The translations under genes were made by a program, and so were the position numbers. This document shows positions 13,602 to 49,268 of a DNA stretch of 64,000 bases, piece after piece (within the stretch, counting starts at the first letter, position 1; each line of letters begins with the position of its first letter). The DNA is taken from assembly GCF_900199705.1 (NCBI RefSeq), contig NZ_LT904908.1, positions 1,046,530 to 1,110,529 of the forward strand, written 5' to 3'. The notes beneath the pieces are model-generated. The model saw only the letters and a list, made by a program, of their open reading frames with translations, was not told where the DNA came from and made no database searches. Source of the DNA: Collinsella provencensis (GTDB lineage Bacteria; Actinomycetota; Coriobacteriia; Coriobacteriales; Coriobacteriaceae).

Positions 13602-14099
13602 CTACTCGACGTTGTTGAAAATGCGAGGAGCATTTGCACAACCGGCGTATTCAGCGAAGCAGTCCCTGTTTGCAAACTTGGGATCGACCGCAGGGAACGC
13701 ACGGCAGTTCACCACATCATCGAGGGTAACGGAATCCAAATAGCTCCGGAGAAGCGCCTGTGCACCCACCCAAATGGGATGATAGCAACAGCCCTCCATA
13801 CGCCCACACACACCGCCTTCGGCCGTGCAATCGTTCATGACGAGCGGACCTTGAACTGCCTCGACAATTTGGCGAATCGTCACCTCTTTGGGGTCAACTT
13901 TCAGGCGCATGCCGCCGCGAACGCCGCGCAGGCTTTCGATAATCCCCGCCTGAACAAGCCCATGCTGAATGGAGCGCGCAAACGAATAAGGCACGTCGAC
14001 CTGATCAGCAGCCGAGCGGACGGACATAAGTCCATCCTGACCGCTGGCGAGCATGGAGAGTAAGCGAAGGGCATAATCGGTTTTGCGAGAAATGTCCAT
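13602..14099 (-). CDS. Rrf2 family transcriptional regulator
   Basis: The ATG at 14099 follows AAGGAG and gives 165 aa; an upstream TTG/ATG extension lacks a ribosome site. The start MDISRKTDYALRLLSMLA is the Rrf2 signature, followed by a winged helix with the wing GLVQAGIIESLRGVRGG. Four cysteines (91, 98, 104, 105) in the CTAEGGVCGRMEGCCYH region match the Fe-S ligand area of IscR/NsrR-type members, so it may sense Fe-S status, NO or redox. The neighbours (MutY-like, rubrerythrin) are compatible with an oxidative-stress context, but targets are unknown. Confidence 0.9.
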   Translation of the reverse strand: MDISRKTDYALRLLSMLASGQDGLMSVRSAADQVDVPYSFARSIQHGLVQAGIIESLRGVRGGMRLKVDPKEVTIRQIVEAVQGPLVMNDCTAEGGVCGRMEGCCYHPIWVGAQALLRSYLDSVTLDDVVNCRAFPAVDPKFANRDCFAEYAGCANAPRIFNNVE

Positions 14100-39409: not shown

Positions 39410-41161
39410 CTATGCGCGACGACGCGAGACGTAAGCAACGCCTGCACCAGCGCCAACCAGGCCAGTCAGCACAACGGCGGCCATGACGGCGTCACCGGTC
39501 TGCGGCAGGGTGCCGGACGGCTTCTTGGTGGGCTTAGCCGGCTTCTCGGGCTGCTCAGGCTTAGCCGGCTTCTCGGGCTGCTCAGGCTTAGCAGGCTCCT
39601 CGGGCACGACGGGCGCCTCGGCTACGGTGTAGGAAACCGTGGGCTTAGCAAAGTCCTCAGCAGCGCCCGGGGTCTGATTCGTGTCAACGGGATACAGCGT
39701 TGCGCTGTCGTTGGTGTAGAGCGCGCTCTTTCCAGCAGCGCCATTAGCGTCGTACTCGCCGTAGGTACCAGCCTTGGTCTGGGGGTTCATCAGCTTCACG
39801 GTGTAAGTAAGGGCAACAGGATCAAAGTTGCTTACTGCCTCATTGATCTCCCACACGAAGTGCTCGCCAGGGACCTCAGGGGTGCCCTCGGGGCAGTAGG
39901 TCACCTTGAAGCGGAAGCCGTTATCGGTCTTGCCGAAGCCGTAGGTGTTCTCGTCAATCTTGACCCTGTCGAGTACCTGATCGCCAACCTCCAGCTCAAG
40001 CTTTTCGACGTCGTTGACGAAATCGAAGTCGTAGGCGTTGCCCTTGTCGTCAGTACCCTTGCCCATAACGTCAACGACCTTGGAGCCGCTGTCAAGCAGG
40101 TAGTACACATCCTTCTGAATATCGTCGAAGTCGACGGTGTTCTCGCCACCCATCCACTTCATGAACGAAGGACCATAGGGGAAACTTGCCATTTCACCTG
40201 GAACACCCTCGCATACAACGTACGCGTTGTAGCCCTCAGCTTTGATGCTCTGATACACCTGGTAGGACTTATACAAAGCAACGTCGACCGTAGAGGCGTA
40301 ATTGTCTTTTTCGCCGTAATGAACAAACTTATCACCAGAGATATCTGCGTCGCGATCATAGGTAGAAGGCTTCTCATCAATGGTCTTCTTGGCAAGACCG
40401 CCGTTCATCTCGGCATACCATTCGTTCCAGTCGTCGGGAGTGTATCCATTGTAATAACGAACATCCCAGCCGTCGGGACTGGCAAGCATCGGTTTATTCG
40501 GAGCGTCACCATTAGCAAAGTTCACGCCGTAGTTCTCATACACGTCTTTCGTATCTTCGTCATCCCAAATGTACGTAAGGCCGTCGCTCACAACAATCAA
40601 GTACTTGCGGCTGGGTTCTTTCACCCTAGTGTCATTGTCAAGCATCGCTTTGCCTGCATTCAAACCAGCACTCATGTTGCTGCCGCCCACCGTGGGACGA
40701 GTATTCATGAAATTAGCAACTTTCTCACCAGTGCTGGCATCAAGCTCGGTCAGAGGAAACGTAGTGACCTCACCACGGAATTGCACAACGCCGACCTGAA
40801 TGGTGGCACCGGACTTCGCGATACTTTCATTAAGGTCATTCAGCATCGCGGTAACTTTTGCTCTAATCAACGGGGCATTGCCAGGACCACCTGATCCTTG
40901 TTGATCATTGCAGCTTGATTCGTCCATAACGAAAACGATGTCGCTGACCAGCTCTTCCTCGGCGGAAGGCAGAGACAGCGTCACCTGAGACTCGTAGTTC
41001 TCATCCAAGTTCGTTGCCGTCTTGGACTTAGAAATGTTCCAGATGTCGGCAGTCGCGCCCATGGCAGGTGTTGCCACAAACACCATGGCCAAGAAAACCG
41101 AGGTCATCACAGCTGTGAAAGCTCTAATCAACCCCTTTTTTCTAAACAGATTTGTTTTCAT
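39410..41161 (-). CDS. VWA-domain cell-wall-anchored surface protein (LPQTG)
   Basis: The ATG at 41161 follows AAAGGAGAAGG and gives 583 aa. Residues 1-35 are a signal peptide (cleavage near AMG-ATA). A von Willebrand A domain starts at about 72: the MIDAS reads DIVFVMDESSC, so the DxSxS motif has Cys84 at the third position; further ligands appear as GGSNMSAGL (Ser161) and VVSDG (Asp193). A Cna-B/pilin-like C-terminal part follows, then a Pro/Lys/Glu repeat (two PEQPEKPAK units) as wall spacer, and the sorting signal LPQTG at 552-556 with hydrophobic helix and RRRA tail. It resembles adhesive tip pilins or adhesins. The promoter region is an apparent invertible segment (41216-41459). The coding sequence has lower GC than neighbours. 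Confidence 0.9.
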   Translation of the reverse strand: MKTNLFRKKGLIRAFTAVMTSVFLAMVFVATPAMGATADIWNISKSKTATNLDENYESQVTLSLPSAEEELVSDIVFVMDESSCNDQQGSGGPGNAPLIRAKVTAMLNDLNESIAKSGATIQVGVVQFRGEVTTFPLTELDASTGEKVANFMNTRPTVGGSNMSAGLNAGKAMLDNDTRVKEPSRKYLIVVSDGLTYIWDDEDTKDVYENYGVNFANGDAPNKPMLASPDGWDVRYYNGYTPDDWNEWYAEMNGGLAKKTIDEKPSTYDRDADISGDKFVHYGEKDNYASTVDVALYKSYQVYQSIKAEGYNAYVVCEGVPGEMASFPYGPSFMKWMGGENTVDFDDIQKDVYYLLDSGSKVVDVMGKGTDDKGNAYDFDFVNDVEKLELEVGDQVLDRVKIDENTYGFGKTDNGFRFKVTYCPEGTPEVPGEHFVWEINEAVSNFDPVALTYTVKLMNPQTKAGTYGEYDANGAAGKSALYTNDSATLYPVDTNQTPGAAEDFAKPTVSYTVAEAPVVPEEPAKPEQPEKPAKPEQPEKPAKPTKKPSGTLPQTGDAVMAAVVLTGLVGAGAGVAYVSRRRA

Positions 41162-41215: not shown

Positions 41216-41239
41216 GCAACGGAATATTCGTTCCGTTGC
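41216..41239. repeat. left recombination site of invertible promoter segment
   Basis: The 24-bp site consists of 9-bp inverted arms GCAACGGAA and TTCCGTTGC around an asymmetric 6-bp spacer TATTCG. This is the geometry of tyrosine-recombinase core sites. 18 bp (41217-41234) recur as exact reverse complement at 41441-41458. It lies 55 bp upstream of the surface protein ATG. Confidence 0.85.
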
Positions 41240-41435
41240 TTAAAGCAGGGGAAATCCAGCGGAAAAGGGAGTAAAGCTATTCAATTGAAGAGAAAGGGGG
41301 CGCGCTTGCGCTTTCGCCGTACTGGGCGAAAAGTGAAAGCGTTTGGGGAAGGTTTACCTTATGAACGGCATCGGTTTCGCGGTTGTAGGACTTCTAACCA
41401 TCTATCTGTGCTATCATTCATCGAAGGAAGGTAGG
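41240..41435. promoter_or_regulatory. putative invertible promoter segment (phase switch) controlling the LPQTG surface protein
   Basis: This stretch of 196 bp lies between two inversely oriented recombination sites. The best promoter-like motif is on the plus strand: extended -10 TG-C-TATCAT at 41409-41417, pointing away from the surface gene. I find no comparable motif on the minus strand. Inversion would aim it at the surface gene, so the assembled orientation is probably OFF. A plus-strand ATG at 41361 with GGAAGG in front starts a short hydrophobic frame that continues across the right site. Promoter strength is inference. Confidence 0.7.
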
Positions 41436-41459
41436 ACAATGGAACGAATATTCCGTTGT
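41436..41459. repeat. right recombination site of invertible promoter segment
   Basis: Arms ACAATGGAA and TTCCGTTGT surround the spacer CGAATA, which is the reverse complement of the left spacer TATTCG. Opposed spacers predict inversion rather than deletion. It lies 66 bp from the recombinase stop. Confidence 0.85.
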
Positions 41460-41524
41460 CTTTTTTCATTTGCTCCCCATGCGTTGAGAACAAACTGGCG
41501 CGTCCGGCAGGAGCGGTTTTGCGC

Positions 41525-42376
41525 CTATGTTAATAAATTCAAACAAGAAACCTGTTTTTTGCGGCGAGCCACATCCGCAGCAAGATATAACCGCGTTGTC
41601 TCCACGCGCGTATGTCCGAGTACAGCGCTCAGGGAATCGATGTCGTTGTGCTTGCGATAGAACACGGTTGCAAACAGGTGACGCAGGTTGTGCGGGAACA
41701 CCTTCCGAGCGTCTATCCCCGCTTGCTTCGCCAACGCTTTTAGAATGCGCCAGATGCGCGTGCGATCAAGCGGCTTGCCGGTCTTGCTTACGAATACAGG
41801 ACCACTGGTAATGCGATGCTTACGGGCAAACCTCGCGATGCGTCGGCAAAGCTCCTCTGGAAGCCAAACGCGACGGACTTTGCCTTTGTTGGCAATCACG
41901 GCAACCTGCTCCTTCGCAGCCTCAACGGTAATCGCCTGCACCTCGCTCACGCGCACGCCCGTTGAGCCGATGGCTTGCACAAGCAAGGCATCCCGCTCGC
42001 TGCTGCACTTCGTTGCCGCCCGCACAAGCTTTTGATATTCACCTTTCGTGAGGTTACGCGTAGCGCTGCGAAACTCGTCTGCCTGAACGCGAAGGCGCTT
42101 TGCCCTCAGCTCGAACGCACCGCAGCACATGAGATAGCTGTTGATTGCCGCGATTCCCACATTAACCGTGGCGGGAGCGTATTCCTTGATGAGCGTCGCT
42201 TTGAAATCGAGCACGGAGGCTTTGTCCAAAACACGTCCTTCGTTCGAAAGGAACGTGATAAAGCGGTTTACGAAACGCGTGTACTTCTCAACAGTTGCCG
42301 GCGCCGACTCTCGTTCTCGTAAAAACGCCTCATATTCCTCAACCGATCGAATCTGGTAGCTGCGTAGTCGAAACAT
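41525..42376 (-). CDS. tyrosine recombinase, probable DNA invertase for the adjacent switch
   Basis: A 283-residue phage-integrase/XerC-D-like recombinase with every catalytic residue: Arg142 (STGVRVSEV), Lys166 (ANKGKVRRVW), His229-X-X-Arg232 (PHNLRHLFA), His255 (LGHTRVETT) and Tyr264 (RLYL). Residues 10-95 are the core-binding SAM-like domain. The size matches stand-alone invertases such as those that flip promoters in Clostridioides and Bacteroides rather than large phage integrases. Its stop lies 66 bp from the right recombination site and its reading direction is the same as the surface gene. Neighbours include no other mobile-element genes. Region upstream (42377-42600) is markedly AT-rich. 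Confidence 0.92.
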   Translation of the reverse strand: MFRLRSYQIRSVEEYEAFLRERESAPATVEKYTRFVNRFITFLSNEGRVLDKASVLDFKATLIKEYAPATVNVGIAAINSYLMCCGAFELRAKRLRVQADEFRSATRNLTKGEYQKLVRAATKCSSERDALLVQAIGSTGVRVSEVQAITVEAAKEQVAVIANKGKVRRVWLPEELCRRIARFARKHRITSGPVFVSKTGKPLDRTRIWRILKALAKQAGIDARKVFPHNLRHLFATVFYRKHNDIDSLSAVLGHTRVETTRLYLAADVARRKKQVSCLNLLT

Positions 42377-47915: not shown

Positions 47916-49268
47916 CTAGTTCTCGAAGCTGTCGACAACCTCGCACACCATACCGGCGCGCGTCGTACGCGGAATGATTTCACCGGCGCACGTGATAAGC
48001 GTCATAACGTGATCGACGTTGTCAATCCGATCCGAAGCGTTTTTGGCCTTTGCGCGAGCCTTACCCAGCGACGTATTCAGGTACTGATGGAACTCGTCGA
48101 TGCTCTCGAAATTGGGAGTGCGAGCGTCCAGGTAGGTGTCCTCCACCACCATGGTGAACAGCGGCTTTAAGACATACGTCTTTCCGTCGGTGATGTAGTA
48201 GAGCTCGTCTATGGTATCGAACACCTTTTGGTCCTGCGTTTGGTCGATGAACTTGAACATCGAGCCATCTTCCATGTGATGACCGTAGAGTGTCGTTTGC
48301 TGATCGATCATGCCCGGAGCAGTGTCAGCCACGTCCATGAACACGGTGCCGTTTTGGTTGTATTCGCCATTGAGCATGTGGCGCAGATACGTCTCGTTGC
48401 TTTCGCCCTGGGCAACCACATAGTTGACGGGGGTATCGGGAATGTAAATCCAACCAACAACGTCGTCGCTGATTTCCTTGAGCGCTGCGAAATCAATCTC
48501 GGGAATGCCACCCGTATCCGTAAGCACATCGTCAGCGATGCTGTTGTAGTAATCAGACGCCTGTTTGTAGCCCATCCGAGCGTAGACAAACAACCCTCCT
48601 GCAATCAGAAGCAGAGCCAATCCAATACCGAGCAGCACCTTCGAAATTATGTCTCGCTTGCCCTTGGGTTTCTTGGGAACACGCTTGGAACCCGTGTCAG
48701 CATACGGAGAACGGTTGGAGCTGCCCATGAAACCCGCGCGCTGCGCATTGCGAGTTTTTTCGGAACGGTTGGTAACGTTCCCACGCGTAACGCCCGCAAC
48801 AGGGTTGACTCCGCTCACCGTGCCGCTGTTTTGTGCACGGGAAGCGCTGTTGGGGCGCTGGGCACCTGCATTGGCACCATTGTTTGCACGGGAAACGACA
48901 CCGAGTCGCTGCGTGCCGGCAACAGGCTGAACACCGTGCGCGCGGCTAGCCTGCGCGTGGCCTCCAGCGCTGCGTGCAGGTTGCGCGCCATTTGCATGCG
49001 AGCGCTTAAACTTGTGCCCTGAGCTACTGGGAGTTGCAGCTTTTTTGAACCGACTTCCTTGCGCGGCTTTTTCCCCATGCAGAGCAGACACGCTCTCTAG
49101 CTGGGAAGATGCTGCATGAGAAGGCACCCTTCTCGTAGGGGCATTCACGGAATTCGGTTCAATTTTATGGGCAGCGTGACTAGCACCCCCCGCCTGAGGG
49201 GCGGCATTTTCATGGGACGGAACCGATTCGGGCTTTGCCTTGAAATGCCGTCCTTCAGTCTCAGCCAT
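47916..49268 (-). CDS. class B sortase with long N-terminal cytoplasmic extension
   Basis: A 450-residue transpeptidase. The catalytic domain has His330 in TTLYGHHMEDGSMF, Cys427 in TLITCAG and a following Arg (RTTRAGMV), plus class B-type features such as DVVGWIYIPDTPVNYVV. A membrane helix lies at about 209-231. Unusually, residues 1-205 are a basic Ser/Ala/Asn/Gln-rich tail in the cytoplasm; normal class B sortases have fewer than 20 residues before the helix. It begins 3 bp after purE. It is the only sortase in the window and a plausible anchor enzyme for the LPQTG protein at 39410-41161, though the motif preference of class B enzymes varies. Confidence 0.9.
   Translation of the reverse strand: MAETEGRHFKAKPESVPSHENAAPQAGGASHAAHKIEPNSVNAPTRRVPSHAASSQLESVSALHGEKAAQGSRFKKAATPSSSGHKFKRSHANGAQPARSAGGHAQASRAHGVQPVAGTQRLGVVSRANNGANAGAQRPNSASRAQNSGTVSGVNPVAGVTRGNVTNRSEKTRNAQRAGFMGSSNRSPYADTGSKRVPKKPKGKRDIISKVLLGIGLALLLIAGGLFVYARMGYKQASDYYNSIADDVLTDTGGIPEIDFAALKEISDDVVGWIYIPDTPVNYVVAQGESNETYLRHMLNGEYNQNGTVFMDVADTAPGMIDQQTTLYGHHMEDGSMFKFIDQTQDQKVFDTIDELYYITDGKTYVLKPLFTMVVEDTYLDARTPNFESIDEFHQYLNTSLGKARAKAKNASDRIDNVDHVMTLITCAGEIIPRTTRAGMVCEVVDSFEN

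Follow-up and report, generated by a model that had tools for sequence, protein, structure and literature searches.

The locus analysed here raises the question of whether a short non-coding segment between a recombinase gene and a surface protein gene of Collinsella provencensis is an invertible promoter. The window, i.e., the whole stretch of 64,000 nucleotides that was analysed, carries on its minus strand, in this order, the recombinase gene, a recombinase-proximal site, a 198-bp segment, a gene-proximal site and the gene of a VWA-domain protein with an LPQTG anchor. From the sequence, it is highly likely that positions 41216-41459 form a site-specific DNA inversion switch, in which the flipping of a promoter controls the VWA/LPQTG gene.

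The putative target (39410..41161, minus strand) encodes a secreted, LPQTG-anchored surface protein of 583 aa, with a VWA domain (PF00092, 1e-7) and a Gram-positive anchor (PF00746, 1.3e-4); comparison by sequence with solved structures found no resemblance. The gene has its own strong Shine-Dalgarno sequence and an ATG preceded by AAAGGAGAAGGAT, both outside the segment. A sortase-domain protein is encoded at 47916-49268 of the window (minus strand) and could anchor the LPQTG protein. The genes flanking the locus are prs and pth. In many relatives, the two are near neighbours, and pth there was not found to have a recombinase or VWA gene at its side, so the locus between them looks like an accessory insertion.

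The two facing 24-bp dyads given in the preliminary description were recovered in full. The gene-proximal site (41216..41239) reads GCAACGGAA-TATTCG-TTCCGTTGC with perfect 9-bp arms, and the recombinase-proximal site (41436..41459) reads ACAATGGAA-CGAATA-TTCCGTTGT with arms that pair at 8/9 positions. As had been described, the asymmetric 6-bp spacers are reverse complements of each other. The 22-bp cores (41217-41238 and 41437-41458) match at 21/22 positions (95%) in inverted orientation, the first 18 bp being the exact reverse complement claimed earlier. They are separated by 198 bp, and the putative invertible segment is placed at 41240..41435. When a degenerate site pattern allowing up to 3 mismatches was run over the whole 1.74-Mb genome, it occurred at these two places only, with 0 hits for the controls. 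The proximal site lies 66 bp from the recombinase stop, a placement like that in relatives. Both sites fold into strong hairpins. A T-run comes after the proximal (right) one on the plus strand, and together they form a terminator-like hairpin (41433..41466, plus strand) of −14 kcal/mol with a z-score of −4.8; neither strand carries a T-run at the left site. An A-rich stretch ahead of the first site, which is the same feature on the other strand, was found in 11/55 relatives. An Rfam search of the region gave no RNA family.

The gene next to the proximal site (41525..42376, minus strand) encodes a tyrosine recombinase of 283 aa, presumed to be the invertase of the segment. It was complete, as first proposed, with a Phage_integrase domain (PF00589, E = 1.4e-26), a SAM-like N-domain and an intact reading frame, and the residues named as catalytic (R142, K166, H229, R232, H255 and Y264) are invariant when the enzyme is aligned with two relatives from the genus. 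Among models and solved structures, those closest to it in sequence are XerA/XerD-like. A FimB/FimE-type invertase was also considered and rejected, with 29.5 and 33.2 bits against PRK09870/09871, whose cut-offs are 221-222. In the tree, the enzyme is placed with inverton-linked recombinases, in a group of 91 rows that is separate from the HsdS-linked and Xer-type enzymes, although the branch of the window enzyme is long and its position unsure; the three recombinases of the genus do not cluster. This is the enzyme that would act on the two dyad sites.

The dyad arrangement was then compared across 89 loci encoding relatives of the recombinase, mostly from gut Clostridia, 73 of which had enough downstream sequence. 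With a pair defined as an inverted repeat of at least 16 bp starting no more than 130 bp from the recombinase stop, inverted dyads were found 3' of the recombinase at 55/73 loci, compared with 0 in the mirror-image upstream position and 0 in dinucleotide shuffles; since the relatives were picked for their likeness to the three enzymes of the genus, this share describes the sample alone. Common sites in relatives read ACATAAT-NNNN-ATTATGT, while others (ACGGAAT-NNNN-GTTCCGT) are window-like. The 4-bp spacer is non-palindromic at all 55 loci, which fits inversion, since inversion requires asymmetry. Segments are mostly about 120-500 bp long, and a single arm mismatch is common. Arms and spacers vary across the relatives, and the inverted pair beside the recombinase is kept. 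No recognisable pair was present in the genus relative G034, in which the recombinase lies beside a secreted protein, nor at several Clostridia loci. Three successive dyad sites follow the recombinase at L042, L045, L047, L065, L088 and L099, so more than two arrangements, by inversions and deletions, are possible there.

Related genomes with the same flanks and a reversed middle, which had been suggested as a check on the switch, were found among these loci. In L040 and L056, the recombinases are collinear (87%) and the downstream sequence is 94% identical, but the segment is identical at 226/257 positions when reversed (88%) and at only 102/232 as read (44%). For L050 and L068, the corresponding values are 235/258 reversed and 117/231 as read, and the same pattern of a reversed segment was seen for L050/L056, L040/L068 and L043/L067. 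In the Coriobacteriales loci L187 and L188, a promoter TTGCAA-N15-TGCATAAT lies 30-34 bp from the segment end and aims at the gene, while in L189 the same promoter lies 35 bp from the opposite end and aims away. By scoring, most segments carry a sigma-70 promoter near one end, with 11 directed towards the target, 26 away from it and 4 ambiguous; in Clostridia segments, these promoters are strong and lie about 40-50 bp from the end.

In addition, the ends of metagenome contigs are unevenly placed, with 11 loci ending 0-150 bp 3' of the recombinase and 0 within 150 bp 5' of it, some of the loci being near-duplicates. This is the pattern of assembly forks expected if both orientations coexist. 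Contig breaks within bases of the first site were observed in L078, L082, L122, L124, L125 and others, and such breaks may offer an easy way to screen fragmented assemblies for active invertons. From these sequence comparisons, the segment does invert in relatives of the locus, and the proposal of recombinase-driven promoter inversion is supported by their paired dyads, opposite orientations and outward promoters. Since related copies face both ways in gut bacteria, the locus is a well-supported switch of a known sort. The window species itself is represented by one assembly, with a single orientation. A search of a viral contig collection with the 22-mer of the segment and the window recombinase gave no match.

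The state shown by the assembly is less certain. The preliminary description held that the sole good promoter motif of the segment points away from the surface gene and that the assembly therefore shows the OFF state. The direction stood, since the extended -10 TGCTATCAT (41409..41417) is on the plus strand and aims away from the gene. The motif TG.TAT.AT has 3 occurrences in the 64 kb on both strands, one of them, near 13787, being an identical TGCTATCAT, and about 0.009 would be expected per 198 bp. Its quality as a promoter did not stand equally well. No good -35 was found at 17 ± 1 bp upstream of the extended -10, and the best sigma-70 scores in the window segment were 1.7 and 5.3, compared with mostly >12 in Clostridia segments. 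Moreover, the -10 sits 24 bp from the segment end, compared with about 36-54 bp in most relatives. The assembly orientation is probably OFF because the only extended -10 in the segment points away from the surface gene, and the call is probable at most because that motif lacks a -35 and lies nearer the segment end than those of relatives. No terminator was found that would clearly block read-through into the surface gene from the recombinase gene, its upstream neighbour on the same strand.

In the proposed mechanism, the adjacent recombinase would bind both dyad sites and recombine them inside the asymmetric 6-bp spacers. Since the spacers are reverse-complementary, the exchange would flip the 198-bp segment instead of deleting it. 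One outward-facing promoter within the segment would transcribe the VWA/LPQTG gene in one orientation and fire towards the recombinase 3' end in the other, where the proximal site with its T-run may act as a terminator and stop the OFF-state transcript before it enters the recombinase gene antisense. Inversion in the window species, the identity of the promoter and phase variation of the surface protein are the predicted parts of this mechanism.

Other explanations of the paired dyads were weighed against this mechanism. If they were look-alike transcription terminators or RNA hairpins, with no inversion, the strong folding of both dyads and the T-run of the right one on the plus strand would be accounted for. 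Terminators, however, do not need loops of 6 bp that are exact reverse complements, the left site has no T-run, relatives keep the pair beside the recombinase despite changing arms and spacers, and orthologues carry the segment both ways, which makes this explanation very improbable. That the pair is a scar left by a mobile element on integration or excision, with the recombinase as its integrase, is the least probable of the explanations considered: membership of the enzyme in the lambda-integrase superfamily and the accessory character of the insertion between prs and pth speak for it, but the sites are inverted and not direct, they enclose 198 non-coding bases and not the recombinase, and unrelated loci have the same arrangement.

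Two further explanations accept the sites as recombination sites, and both were judged unlikely. A switch that was formerly invertible and is now decayed or locked in one orientation in this lineage would agree with the arm mismatch of the right site, the weak promoter and the genus relative without recognisable sites, and it is given slightly more weight than the other three; the recombinase frame and its catalytic residues are nevertheless intact, 21/22 core bases match, and the single arm mismatch is of a kind common in relatives. Marginally less probable is that the flip would also alter the protein, by joining a segment frame (MNGIGFAVVGLLTIYLCYHSSKEGR..., 41361-41435) to the VWA frame in an N-terminally extended form. 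In the flipped sequence, the open frame ahead of the VWA ATG spans 59 codons, compared with 26 as assembled, but an equally long open frame arises in 13% of shuffled segments, the genus offered no convincing relative of the peptide, a strong Shine-Dalgarno sequence stands at the native ATG, and the target genes of relatives begin outside the segment. Inversion of a promoter segment by the adjacent recombinase is therefore retained as the preferred explanation.

Recombinases of this class were found in 18/397 Coriobacteriales genomes. Outside the three genus members, a downstream inverted pair was present at 9/15 Coriobacteriales loci, one of which (L185) is atypical. In other genera, L195 (CAACGGAATGGGCGTTCCGTTG) and L192 (GCAACGGAACGCCAATTCCGTTGC) have the arms of the window with different spacers, upstream of secreted proteins, and in G016, of the same genus, an inverted pair separates the recombinase from an LPXTG pilus operon (LPXTG protein, pilin backbone gene and sortase). 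By a crude test, 21/49 genes past the second site begin with a signal-peptide-like segment. Pfam domains of the targets include SLH, BspA-type LRR, Listeria-Bacteroides repeats, collagen repeats and FctA pilin, as well as MCP, GGDEF/EAL, sugar transferase and TetR regulators. The targets of relatives are mostly surface or regulatory genes, as is usual for phase variation. A SAM-like integrase N-domain was seen in 4/49 targets (L046:7116-7976, L096:7143-7949, L102:7135-7977 and L120:7150-8004), and such recombinase-like targets beyond the segment could possibly form a cascade of switches.

Recombinase-adjacent invertible promoters of surface genes are well known, and the window locus adds a member and not a mechanism. 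In the fim switch of E. coli (FimB/FimE), short inverted repeats bound a promoter flip that controls a surface adhesin, with the recombinase genes nearby; the layout is alike, but the window enzyme is XerA/XerD-like rather than FimB/FimE-like. RecV of C. difficile acts on several distant loci, and control of cwpV falls after the transcription start, whereas the window has its recombinase next to the segment and a predicted promoter flip. What the cwpV and flagellar switches (RecV; PMC2784873, PMC5386303) share with the window is a tyrosine recombinase paired with a short segment, inverted by the enzyme in those systems, ahead of a surface-structure gene. Among published groups, the nearest is probably inverton group 139 and its invertase group 35 (PMC11892184, Microbiome 2025), with which class distribution and dimensions agree and in which a tyrosine recombinase lies beside a short inverton in gut Clostridia. 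Its published examples have inverted repeats of 26 and 14 bp and a whole element of 254-257 bp, a size like that of the family studied here, and reads show orientation shifts over time, in one case with surface attachment (PMC11892184). Of its members, 32/33 are Clostridia (PMC11892184), while the window belongs to the Coriobacteriales. Within the genus, recombinases that probably shuffle HsdS (G022, L035) are also of a phase-variation type and about 33% identical to the window enzyme, but they are set among large inverted coding repeats and occupy a separate tree branch. At about 6.3-10 kb of L035 (G022), such repeats surround a related tyrosine recombinase in what is probably a phase-variable type I restriction hsdS locus. 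A literature search found no paper linking Collinsella with invertons and no invertible promoter for Coriobacteriia.

Homologues of the VWA protein point to a parallel system. Upstream of those in G036 (47%; L145:4775-5676) and G013 (39%; L142:3857-4907) is a serine recombinase of the Mpi/resolvase superfamily, unrelated to the tyrosine recombinase. That serine enzyme is followed, in only these two among 45 genomes, by short inverted repeats, GTAGACCTTT and AAAGGTCTAC, with about 126 bp between them. Two more VWA homologues, in G017 and G026, have no recombinase nearby. Between the serine-invertase repeats and the VWA homologue, a small gene (L142:4940-5584) starts like a NusG/RfaH antiterminator (MQRWYALSARRGREQ). 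It is conceivable, at somewhat less than even probability, that the tyrosine recombinase and its segment are a portable cassette that entered the Coriobacteriia more than once and captured various surface genes, and that one adhesin family was made phase-variable independently by the tyrosine recombinase here and by an Mpi-like serine invertase in G013 and G036.

The locus adds the Coriobacteriia to the range of a recombinase-coupled inverton family whose loci seen here are mainly from gut Clostridia, and offers an exact, testable segment and enzyme. In this family, the architecture stays while site arms and spacers vary. Together, these loci suggest that the genus bet-hedges its wall-anchored adhesins through interchangeable recombinase modules.
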